Assembly: GCA_024402405.1 (NCBI GenBank)
Contig: JAKSTW010000015.1
Location: forward strand, 1-35,871
From: Spirochaetia bacterium
GTDB taxonomy: Bacteria > Spirochaetota > Spirochaetia > CADAEX01
Direction: 5' to 3'
Length of the DNA: 35,871 bases
Position numbers and translations under genes: made by a program. Within the stretch, counting starts at the first letter, position 1, and each line of letters starts with the position of its first letter. The notes below the pieces were generated by a model. The model did not search any database. It had not been told where the DNA came from and saw only the letters and a list, made by a program, of their open reading frames with translations. This document shows, in pieces, positions 20,610 to 33,415 of the stretch.

Positions 20610-21218
20610 ATGTTTGTAGTTTGCCTTGACCTGGAGGGAGTGCTTGTCCCTGAAATATGGATAAATGTAGCTGAGAAAACAGGAATAAAGGAGCTCAGGC
20701 TCACCACCAGAGATATTCCTGATTATGACGTGCTGATGAAAGGCAGAATCGAGATACTGAAACAGCACAACCTGACTCTGAAAGATATACAGGATGTGAT
20801 AGCCACCATGAAGCCTCTGGACGGTGCAAAGGAATTCATGACAGAACTCAGAAGCCTGACACAGGCCGTGATCCTGTCCGACACTTTCGACCAGTTTGCC
20901 AAGCCGCTCATGAAACAGCTGAACTGGCCTACGATTTTCTGCAACACACTTACAGTGGATGACAGCAACATGATAACCGGATACAAGCTCAGACAGAAGG
21001 ATGGCAAAAAACATGCGGTAGAGGGATTCCATTCCATGAATCTGAAAGTGTTTGCATCAGGCGACTCATACAATGACCTGTCCATGATAAAAGAGGCAGA
21101 CGGTGGAATGCTTTTCTGTCCTCCGCAGAAAATAATCGATGAGAATCCGCAGATAAAAGTAGCACACGATTATGATGACCTTCTGTGCGGAATAAAGACT
21201 CTGCTGAAAACTATCTGA
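20610..21218 (+). CDS. thrH: ThrH phosphoserine phosphatase / phosphoserine:homoserine phosphotransferase
   Basis: A 202-residue HAD-superfamily protein matching ThrH of Pseudomonas along its length: CLDLEGVLVPEIWI (nucleophile D7), ATTRDIPDYDVLMKGR-like segment, VILSDTFDQF (motif II Ser/Thr), GYKLRQKDGKK (motif III Lys) and SGDSYNDLSMIKEA (motif IV Asp). ThrH removes phosphate from phosphoserine and can pass it to homoserine, linking serine and threonine synthesis. Clear promoter, strong Shine-Dalgarno and a terminator mark it as a single-gene unit. Confidence 0.93.
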   Translation: MFVVCLDLEGVLVPEIWINVAEKTGIKELRLTTRDIPDYDVLMKGRIEILKQHNLTLKDIQDVIATMKPLDGAKEFMTELRSLTQAVILSDTFDQFAKPLMKQLNWPTIFCNTLTVDDSNMITGYKLRQKDGKKHAVEGFHSMNLKVFASGDSYNDLSMIKEADGGMLFCPPQKIIDENPQIKVAHDYDDLLCGIKTLLKTI

Positions 21219-21280: not shown

Positions 21281-21300
21281 AGATTCTCTTATGAGAATCT
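21281..21300. terminator. Bidirectional terminator between thrH and the 39-residue peptide gene
   Basis: AGATTCTC (21281-21288), TTAT, GAGAATCT (21293-21300): a perfect 8-bp stem. A run of A (21273-21280) precedes it and GTTCTTTTTT follows, so U-rich tails are available for both the plus-strand thrH and the minus-strand small gene. Confidence 0.85.
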
Positions 21301-21326: not shown

Positions 21327-21446
21327 TCAGAATCCTAATACATGGGCTACAACTGCAATCACCAGCATTCCCGCCATGGCAATCACACTGTAACACTGTA
21401 CATCACACATTGCCTTCTGGGCAGTGCATACTGTATTCAATGACAT
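21327..21446 (-). CDS. Small 39-residue Cys-containing membrane peptide
   Basis: A short gene below usual ORF cut-offs. It reads MSLNTVCTAQKAMCDVQCYS, then a hydrophobic stretch (VIAMAGMLVIAVVAHVLGF) to the stop. The N-terminal half has cysteines at 7, 14 and 18; the second half (about residues 20-39) is one membrane helix ending at the C-terminus. Support is strong: AAGGAGG seven bases before the ATG, a TTGACA-17-TATATT promoter, and a hairpin terminator 27 bases after the stop. No family recognised. The signals suggest an abundant transcript; a tail-anchored or regulatory small membrane protein is a guess. Confidence 0.75.
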   Translation of the reverse strand: MSLNTVCTAQKAMCDVQCYSVIAMAGMLVIAVVAHVLGF

Positions 21447-21504
21447 ACTCGTGCCTCCTTTTTGTTCTTTTACAGGAGTATTTTAAAAAACCTCTTACAT
21501 AATC

Positions 21505-21533
21505 AATATACGTATAACATAAAAATTTGTCAA
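21505..21533 (-). promoter_or_regulatory. Near-consensus sigma-70 promoter of the small membrane peptide gene
   Basis: On the minus strand TTGACA (21533-21528), exactly 17 bases, TATATT (21510-21505). The -35 is perfect and the -10 matches five of six. The expected leader is about 50 bases. Confidence 0.75.
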
Positions 21534-21534
21534 C

Positions 21535-21556
21535 AGATATAAAAGACAAAATATCT
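21535..21556. repeat. Inverted repeat between the HAD gene stop and the small gene promoter
   Basis: AGATAT (21535-21540), AAAAGACAAA, ATATCT (21551-21556). It overlaps the HAD stop codon and abuts the -35 box. It might be a weak terminator of the long tig-to-HAD transcript or an operator of the next promoter. Confidence 0.35.
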
Positions 21557-22167
21557 CAGAAAGACTGGATCCCCTTTTTATCAGGATGAGCTTCGAACCA
21601 GCTGTTCCATTCCGAGATTTCCTCCCCGTCATGGATCACATAGGCTCTGGCAGCCTGATCTGCCAGGAATCGGTCTGACCAGGTGTCACTGTAGAACTCA
21701 TCAATTGGTGTGTCGCCATAATGTTTCCTGTAGTTCTGAAGCTTGTACTCTCCGATGGCAAACATTCCGTCGATCTTACCAGTTCTTTTATCCATAGGCG
21801 TGGCCACCAGCCCCCTGACATTCAGCCGTCTGCATATAGGCTCCATCAGAAAGGCCGGGGTTCCGCTGGCAATCACATCATCAGATCTTTTGCGGGAAGC
21901 ATACCATTTTTTCATATACTTCTCCACCTGATCCCAGTATTCCTCCAGAAGATGCTCCAGATTTCCGTCCCTGTCAATTTTCTTCAGGAAAGAATACTCA
22001 TGCTCACGGGCAACCGTCTTTGTGACAGCCTTCATCCGGAGCAGCATATCCCAGAAATGCCAGTTTATCTTATAAAGAAAGAACCCCTTCTTTGCAAAGA
22101 TAAAATTGAAGAATCTCTGCTCACTGTCTCCGGTGAAAAGCGTCTCATCAAAATCGTATACGTTCAT
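21556..22167 (-). CDS. HAD-IB family phosphatase
   Basis: A 203-residue HAD hydrolase of the SerB-like IB group. Motif I is DFDETL (D5, D7), motif II is ASGTPAFL, the lysine motif is around EYKLQNYR, and the acidic motif IV is YSDTWSDRFLA. The substrate is unknown; phosphoserine, phosphatidylglycerophosphate or similar small phosphates are candidates in this group. It is the last gene of the tig-to-HAD run, six bases after the adenosine-specific kinase gene. It is not a duplicate of thrH; overall similarity is limited to HAD motifs. Confidence 0.85.
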   Translation of the reverse strand: MNVYDFDETLFTGDSEQRFFNFIFAKKGFFLYKINWHFWDMLLRMKAVTKTVAREHEYSFLKKIDRDGNLEHLLEEYWDQVEKYMKKWYASRKRSDDVIASGTPAFLMEPICRRLNVRGLVATPMDKRTGKIDGMFAIGEYKLQNYRKHYGDTPIDEFYSDTWSDRFLADQAARAYVIHDGEEISEWNSWFEAHPDKKGIQSF

Positions 22168-22173
22168 ATAACC

Positions 22174-22662
22174 TTAAAATTTATATCCGAACATCCTCAG
22201 CATGTCTTTCCGGTCTTTTTTATCAGCCTCGCCCTCAATTCCCTTCGGAGAGAAACCGTCTATCACGCCCAGAATACCATTGCCCTGCTCTGTACCAGCC
22301 ACAATCAGCTGAAGCGGATTGGCTGTGGCAGCAAAAATATTCACCACCTCACCGCAGGCCTGAACAGCTTTCAGGATATTGATCGGGAAAGCCTTCTTTA
22401 TAAGCAGGTAGAAAGTATGTCCGGCACCGGCAGCAGCGGCATTGTCAGCAGCAGCCTTAACCAGCTCATCATTGTTTCCGGCAGTACGGATAAGACATGG
22501 ACCGGATGCTTCACTGAAAGCAAGTCCGTATTCAATGCCAGGTACTGCAGAAACTATTATCTCCTGCAGGTCTTCCACTGTCTTTATGAAATGGGACTGT
22601 CCCACTATGATATTCGAATCTTCAGGTATTATAGCCTGAACAGCAGAAATCTTAACGTCCAT
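22174..22662 (-). CDS. Adenosine-specific kinase family protein (DUF355)
   Basis: A 162-residue protein of the archaeal/thermophile-rich family annotated as adenosine-specific kinase. Marked segments are the N-terminal NIIVGQSHFIKTVEDL, YGLAFSEASGPCLIRTAGND-like stretch, GHTFYLLIKKAFPINILKAV, NIFAATANPLQLIV, and GNGILGVIDGFSPKGIE. Biochemical evidence for the family is limited. The start is the ATG at 22662, which has GTGAGG five bases upstream that also contains the pheT stop; a longer frame from 22695 adds MTLSLRTSEAK and overlaps pheT. A patchy family found beside an archaeal-type PheRS suggests both have an archaeal-like history, which is an inference. Confidence 0.85.
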   Translation of the reverse strand: MDVKISAVQAIIPEDSNIIVGQSHFIKTVEDLQEIIVSAVPGIEYGLAFSEASGPCLIRTAGNNDELVKAAADNAAAAGAGHTFYLLIKKAFPINILKAVQACGEVVNIFAATANPLQLIVAGTEQGNGILGVIDGFSPKGIEGEADKKDRKDMLRMFGYKF

Positions 22663-22669
22663 CTTCGCC

Positions 22670-24370
22670 TCACTTGTTCTCAAGGATAAGGTCAAGGTTC
22701 AGCTCACCGGCTGTGCATGGAACCTGAATACCCCAGTTTTCCAGAACAACAGGATTTACCTCACCCATGATACCGATCTCTTTCCCGGCAGCCATGATCT
22801 TGGCACATCTTCCAGAAATAAATCTAGGATCCTCAGTCTCCTCCAGCTCATACTCAACACCGCTGTAATACAGGAGAGCAGAAATCTCGGAGTTCACAGA
22901 GTTGAATCCGGCCTCTTTGTCGGCAGAGAGGAAACCAAGAGAATTTATAGTCTTGACGCCATAATTCTCAGATGGATCGATCAGTGCTATCTTTCCGATC
23001 TCAAAAATATTATGAGGATATACAGCATTGCTGGAGATCGACTCTGAATTCAGCAGGCAAGGAAGAACAGACGGGCGAACAAACTCAAAGTTCTCTGTCA
23101 TCGGATTGGAGATCTGCACCACTTTCTCAGGAGTGATGTTCATTTTCTGGATATAATCAGCAGCTGAGCCCAGATAGCAGTATGCCATTTCCTGGAAACC
23201 AAGACCCACCATGATATTCTTGATTTTTCTTCCCAGCATTGACTCTCTGGAAATGCTTCCTTTTGTAAAATCAGAAGGCATCTCAGGGACGAAATTTTTC
23301 AGTCCCTTTCCGATCATGATATCCTCAATGGCATCCACAGAGTGGAGGAAGTCGTTTCTGTACTCCGCAGGATAAACAGTGATGATATCTCCATCCACCT
23401 TAACTTTGCTGCCAAGCTTCTGGCAGAATGCCGCAGCCTCAGATACAGTGAACTTCTCACCAAGAAGCTTATTCACATATTTTATATCAACAGTGACCGG
23501 CTCCTGGAAATAGTATGGAACTGTCACTTCTCTTCCGAATGGTGTGTCATAAGGATATCTCACCTTCACCGGAAGGATCTCAAAGCCGGAGTCATAGAAA
23601 TCACATGCCACGATAGAAGCTGTGAGCATAAGAGAAGGCATATCAGTACCTGTGATCTCCACGAAAAGATCCTTGTCCCCAACTTTCACCGCTCCGATAT
23701 AATTGCTGTTGATGACAGGAGGCATACTGAGTGTGTTTTTATTGGCATCAACGATATAAGGGAATTTTGCCATTCCGTCCAGCAGATGTCCGAACTCAAC
23801 ACCCTTAGGATGCTTTTTCAGAATCTCACGGAGGCTCATCTCCTCCTCAAAGCCCAGAGGCGCAAACTTTGTGGTGTCAGGATCCGCAGCATAGAAATGA
23901 ATAGGATATTTGATGAGATCACTTCTGAAAACGCCCATGGCAATGGATTTTCTCTTGCGACCATAGTTCCAGCACAGCTTCTCCTGAGTCTGGATTATAT
24001 CTTTCAGTCCATCTTCAGTGATTCCGGTCTTGCTTCTTACGGCAAATGCAACCTCATAAGGTCTGATATCCTTAACAGATGCATCAACATCTACAATTCT
24101 GTCACCGCTGTCCTTCATATCCCCTTTTCTTGAGAAGAAAGGATATTCAGGAACACTGCCACCCAGGTACATTCTCAGGATCCTTCCGAAACCCGCTGTT
24201 GACCAGAGGTCAGGACGGTTTGTATCATTGAGCTCAATTTTCAGAACATCTCCATTCTCCTCATCAAGCTCAGCCTTAGCACACTGGATAAGATCTATGA
24301 AATCCTGTCCTGTGACCTTCTTTCCCATATATTTATAAAGAGCTTCCGCAGAAACTTCAATTTTTGGCAT
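22670..24370 (-). CDS. pheT: Phenylalanyl-tRNA synthetase beta subunit, archaeal/spirochaete type
   Basis: A 566-residue beta chain, far shorter than the ~800-residue bacterial PheT. It lacks the EMAP-like tRNA-binding and anticodon-binding (FDX-ACB) domains of bacterial PheT. Visible parts are the N-terminal MPKIEVSAEALYKYMGKKVT, the B3/B4 editing-like middle, the B5 region (VKVRYPYDTPFGREVTVPYY onwards), and the catalytic-like C-terminal domain with the VQISNPMTENFEFVRPSVLP segment. It is required with PheS for the (alpha-beta)2 enzyme that charges tRNA-Phe. It starts two bases past the pheS stop. Archaeal-type PheRS in bacteria is well known in spirochaetes. Confidence 0.94.
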   Translation of the reverse strand: MPKIEVSAEALYKYMGKKVTGQDFIDLIQCAKAELDEENGDVLKIELNDTNRPDLWSTAGFGRILRMYLGGSVPEYPFFSRKGDMKDSGDRIVDVDASVKDIRPYEVAFAVRSKTGITEDGLKDIIQTQEKLCWNYGRKRKSIAMGVFRSDLIKYPIHFYAADPDTTKFAPLGFEEEMSLREILKKHPKGVEFGHLLDGMAKFPYIVDANKNTLSMPPVINSNYIGAVKVGDKDLFVEITGTDMPSLMLTASIVACDFYDSGFEILPVKVRYPYDTPFGREVTVPYYFQEPVTVDIKYVNKLLGEKFTVSEAAAFCQKLGSKVKVDGDIITVYPAEYRNDFLHSVDAIEDIMIGKGLKNFVPEMPSDFTKGSISRESMLGRKIKNIMVGLGFQEMAYCYLGSAADYIQKMNITPEKVVQISNPMTENFEFVRPSVLPCLLNSESISSNAVYPHNIFEIGKIALIDPSENYGVKTINSLGFLSADKEAGFNSVNSEISALLYYSGVEYELEETEDPRFISGRCAKIMAAGKEIGIMGEVNPVVLENWGIQVPCTAGELNLDLILENK

Positions 24371-33385: not shown

Positions 33386-33415
33386 TTGACAAAGTTGTGT
33401 TATTTTTTGCATAAT
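33386..33415 (+). promoter_or_regulatory. Promoter of the tRNA-His-Arg-Lys cluster
   Basis: TTGACA (33386-33391), 18 bases, CATAAT (33410-33415). The expected start is only a few bases before tRNA-His. Confidence 0.7.

Follow-up and report, generated by a model that had tools for sequence, protein, structure and literature searches.

We identified, on the minus strand of the window (the whole stretch of 35,871 nucleotides of spirochaete DNA analysed here), a 39-codon gene predicted to encode a small membrane protein (21327..21446, stop codon included). The call draws on the list of open reading frames, on relatives and on the substitution pattern; we observed the gene, its frame and its hydrophobic helix directly, as well as the conservation of its position and of its signals. 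The product is probably an inner-membrane protein with a single pass (N-in, C-out), restricted to one genus, expressed from a transcription unit of its own and working through its helix, most likely via a membrane partner. Seven genomes of one genus were compared, all rumen-type Spirochaetia MAGs: that of the window (G000; 1.5 Mb, 96% complete) and six relatives, which hold four distinct coding sequences and resemble one another much more than they do the window species.

Expression signals and locus

The open reading frame begins with an ATG at 21446 and its product, MSLNTVCTAQKAMCDVQCYSVIAMAGMLVIAVVAHVLGF, has 39 aa with cysteines at positions 7, 14 and 18. Its highest hydropathy window covers residues 21-39 (mean 2.49), and among the open reading frames of 25-70 aa in the window that are preceded by a Shine-Dalgarno sequence, it alone has a hydrophobic stretch of membrane grade. 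The Shine-Dalgarno sequence AAAAGGAGG (21454..21462, minus strand) stands 7 nt from the ATG and is identical in 7/7 genomes. A promoter scan placed a sigma-70-type promoter at 21505..21533 (minus strand), composed of TTGACA (21533-21528), a 17-nt spacer and TATATT (21510-21505), with 11 of 12 positions matching the consensus. It is conserved in the relatives as TTGACT-18-TATATT, TTGAC and CGTATATT being invariant in all seven aligned promoters. The short minus-strand gene with TTGACA-17-TATATT and a Shine-Dalgarno sequence reported in the preliminary description is therefore present and conserved in the seven genomes. The same description ranked its expression signals as the best in the window: the promoter does stand at the top of the sigma-70-like matches over the 36 kb, jointly with an equal-scoring site at 33386 on the plus strand (TTGACA-18-CATAAT). 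Lone consensus matches are unremarkable and common by chance, four promoter-like sites being found in the 2-kb region against 4.2 expected by chance; the significance of the signal set lies in its conservation in the relatives. The abundant transcript which the description derived from these signals is a prediction.

Judging from the -10 box, transcription would start at about 21498. The 5' leader (21447..21498, minus strand), supported by alignment and motif search, contains the conserved GAGNTTTTTNAAAA and a segment able to pair with the Shine-Dalgarno sequence (CTCCT/AGGAG). In all seven species the GAGNTTTTTNAAAA motif follows directly past the -10 box and is accompanied by the segment that could mask the Shine-Dalgarno sequence (21463-21498, minus strand, in the window). 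GAG-N-TTTTT-N-AAAA is invariant in the aligned leaders, and each of the seven genomes has a single site at which a -10 box and the leader motif come together. One match to the leader motif in a sister-genus genome, G010, was dismissed as chance, the sequence there being unrelated and followed by no similar small open reading frame. The possible pairing is CUCCU/AGGAG in the window species and UCCUU/AAGGA in the relatives. Because the predicted leader hairpin is no better than that of shuffled sequence (z -0.3 to -1.4), we treat translational control by the leader as a lead rather than a result.

At the other end, the terminator scan found an 8-bp hairpin, AGATTCTC-ATAA-GAGAATCT (21300-21281), followed on the minus strand by TTTTTTTT, so that the RNA predicted from promoter to terminator would measure about 220 nt. 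A T-rich run also follows this hairpin on the plus strand. With T-rich runs on both sides, the element (21281..21300, both strands) is a bidirectional intrinsic terminator common to the small gene and the convergent thrH; the hairpin and T run described earlier do exist, but, being shared with thrH, they are no independent evidence for the small gene. The relatives carry at the same place a different hairpin, CGAACC-GAAA-GGTTCG, with its T run.

The thrH gene (20610..21218, plus strand; phosphoserine phosphatase/homoserine phosphotransferase; NF010109, E 1.2e-92) adjoins the small gene convergently in all seven sampled genomes of the genus, with a stop-to-stop distance of 50-52 bp in the relatives measured. 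The other flank is occupied in the window by a HAD-family gene (21556-22167, minus strand), and species of the genus differ in which gene lies upstream of the small one. Hence the small gene is not part of an operon but an independent transcription unit, and that flank of the locus undergoes gene turnover. At the loci L003, L005 and L007 (from G004, G003 and G001), the upstream position is held by a hydrophobic open reading frame of ~450 codons in some and by unrelated ones in others. Further along the window lies an adenosine-specific kinase family gene (22174-22695), which adjoins a gene for the phenylalanyl-tRNA synthetase beta subunit (22670-24370, minus strand); the latter belongs to the archaeal-type family TIGR00471 (E 5.8e-153), not to the bacterial one.

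Coding evidence and distribution

The Shine-Dalgarno sequence, the start, the length of 38-39 codons and the stop are kept in 7/7 genomes, and the frame, start, stop and C-terminal helix persist at about 60% nucleotide identity. In the deepest comparison, between the window species and G004, the last 21 codons show 26 differences in 63 nt. Random placement of an equal number of nucleotide changes would leave 6.6-6.9 of these 21 residues identical, against 11 observed (P 0.006-0.010); the observed BLOSUM score was reached in only 5e-5 to 3e-4 of the random trials, and a stop was created in about 39% of them. About half of the differences fall on third codon positions. Pairwise values among the relatives are 0.02-0.12 for dN versus 0.10-0.29 for dS. 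The bias towards synonymous sites, proposed earlier as a check, is suggestive only: 8 of the 18 changes among the six relatives are synonymous, versus 25% expected (p 0.055). Since the frame and the amino-acid similarity are kept beyond what random substitution would leave, the comparison indicates that the open reading frame is a real protein gene and not a small RNA.

The genome of the window holds one copy of the gene and no paralogues. Each of the six other genomes gave a weak peptide match at the corresponding position, on the other strand from thrH, and the orthologue is single-copy in all seven, together with its promoter, leader, Shine-Dalgarno sequence and terminator. A profile of five variants, the window's own and the relatives' sequences among them, recovered these seven members, with no further credible match in the family or among 395 genomes of the class; its E-values for the seven loci are not independent, because the loci came from the search that supplied the profile, and the independent evidence for orthology is position, strand, signals and substitution pattern. 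Class-level matches at E 0.005-0.1 were set aside as noise, most lying inside long open reading frames or containing a stop. A degenerate DNA pattern for A-H-x-L-G-F-stop has exactly one match in every one of the seven genomes and none in the four genomes of the sister genus; in the three of these where thrH was found, other sequence lies beside it. At more distant thrH loci, the opposite-strand small open reading frames beside thrH all lack a membrane helix. Pfam, NCBIfam, PHROGs, PADLOC, PDB sequences, phage records and viral contigs yielded no credible match to the small protein. The marginal family matches (LH1 beta, PHROG 12052 and DUF6529; E 0.015-0.8) were discarded, as they involve short helix stretches or single members only. 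On this sampling, the gene appears restricted to one genus of gut spirochaetes.

Conserved residues and possible function

Conservation is concentrated in the C-terminal half, where, besides the start, all the invariant residues are found (V21, M24, A25, L28, A31, A34, H35, L37, G38 and F39). Residue alignment and hydropathy predict there a conserved transmembrane helix ending in AHxLGF (21330..21389, minus strand), and hydropathy peaks at 2.2-2.5 over the last 19 residues in all variants, as expected from the single C-terminal membrane helix put forward in the preliminary description. The emphasis which that description laid on three cysteines was misplaced: C7, C14 and C18 occur in the window species alone; in the six relatives the only cysteine is near the C-terminus, in AHCLGF. 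The conservation it proposed to look for in relatives thus holds for the helix and fails for the cysteines, and we rejected a cysteine motif as the functional core. Between the window species and the relatives, no similarity is seen over the first 18 residues. The window peptide is 34% identical to those of the relatives, versus 89-90% for thrH across the same species; the small protein therefore evolves far faster than its neighbour, and the constraint on its N-terminal half is weak or species-specific. In the relatives a lysine and an arginine (K14/R18) stand just before the helix, which by the positive-inside rule suggests an N-in, C-out topology. Small membrane proteins have been delimited by an open reading frame of 60-180 nt, a membrane segment of 15-30 residues and conservation in other organisms (PMC10903887); here, the coding length is 117 nt, residues 21-39 are hydrophobic and the gene is conserved in 7/7 genomes. 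For translation and membrane location, the coding constraint speaks only indirectly.

We propose that a conserved promoter of housekeeping type would drive the gene for this protein of 38-39 residues and no other. The protein's fast-evolving N-terminal half, about 17 residues, would probably be cytoplasmic, and its conserved helix would place the C-terminus probably on the periplasmic side. The helix, through V21, M24, A25, L28, A31, A34, H35 and the terminal LGF, would most likely pack onto a larger protein of the membrane or self-associate. Binding of a partner, as for AcrZ or KdpF, is suggested by analogy only, because operon structure ties the small gene to no partner. A more detailed version is rather speculative, namely that the leader masks the Shine-Dalgarno sequence and that the protein, highly expressed and specific to the genus, regulates a core membrane complex of gut spirochaetes as one of its subunits.

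We considered whether the locus might instead produce a small RNA that is regulatory, its open reading frame being incidental or secondary, or an RNA with two functions. Promoter, terminator and the leader with GAGNTTTTTNAAAA would delimit such an RNA, and the leader, with its motif after the -10 box once in each of the seven genomes, is kept even in the divergent window species, where the N-terminal half of the peptide is not. However, the frame, start, stop and C-terminal residues are kept through changes that fall heavily on third positions, the terminator sequence differs between the window species and the rest, the leader folds no better than shuffles, and Rfam, which reported only five tRNAs in the window, has no match to the transcript. 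The preliminary description had named a frame lost from relatives that keep promoter and hairpin as the sign of a small RNA; with the frame conserved in 7/7 genomes, an RNA without a coding role was rejected, and we hold the broader RNA reading to be unlikely.

Still less probable is a membrane peptide resembling type I toxins and repressed by its own leader or by an antisense RNA. Its size and single hydrophobic helix would fit, and a leader segment able to pair with the Shine-Dalgarno sequence exists in all species, yet the gene is single-copy at one fixed chromosomal site in 7/7 genomes, has no paralogues, and shows no consensus-type promoter for an antisense RNA on the strand opposite to it, where a non-consensus one may exist, features that make this reading less likely than a protein that binds a partner. 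There is likewise no toxin match in PADLOC or Pfam, and the small protein lacks the charged C-terminus that several type I toxins have. We give an equally small chance to a protein whose target is the membrane as such and not a single protein partner. YohP, of 27 aa in E. coli, is a precedent (PMC12719787), and most of the conserved positions carry small or aliphatic residues of a generic kind; on the other hand, the conserved H35 and the invariant terminal LGF may point to a specific contact, and the promoter, judged by its consensus, looks housekeeping-like and not of a stress type. A partner-binding membrane protein is the reading we prefer.

Relation to known small membrane proteins

AcrZ is found in association with AcrB (PMC7267776), and a stabilising effect on KdpABC is supposed for KdpF (PMC3618439). 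The small protein is like both in having under 50 aa, one helix and no catalytic residues; it differs from them in having no linked partner gene and no sequence relation to any named family, searches of Pfam, NCBIfam and PDB sequences giving no match above noise. For YohP, which is stress-linked, altered membrane fluidity and membrane potential have been described (PMC12719787). Both proteins are short and barely more than a membrane helix; no sequence relation is shown between them, and the promoter that is not stress-like and the conserved C-terminal AHxLGF set the protein of the window apart.

The gene adds a well-supported orphan small-protein family for a little-studied spirochaete lineage, and the case shows how a genuine small gene can be told apart from a small RNA by the conservation of promoter, leader and frame. 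Many other small membrane proteins are likewise lineage-specific, and the general surprise is modest, very many comparable families having already been catalogued: Fesenko et al. reported many lineage-specific hydrophobic intergenic microproteins in Enterobacteriaceae (PMC11188072). The small protein differs from these in coming from a Spirochaetia genus outside that survey and in its unusually clear promoter, leader, Shine-Dalgarno sequence and terminator; it shares with them a function that is, for most of them, unknown, as well as an intergenic position, hydrophobicity, purifying selection and support from synteny.
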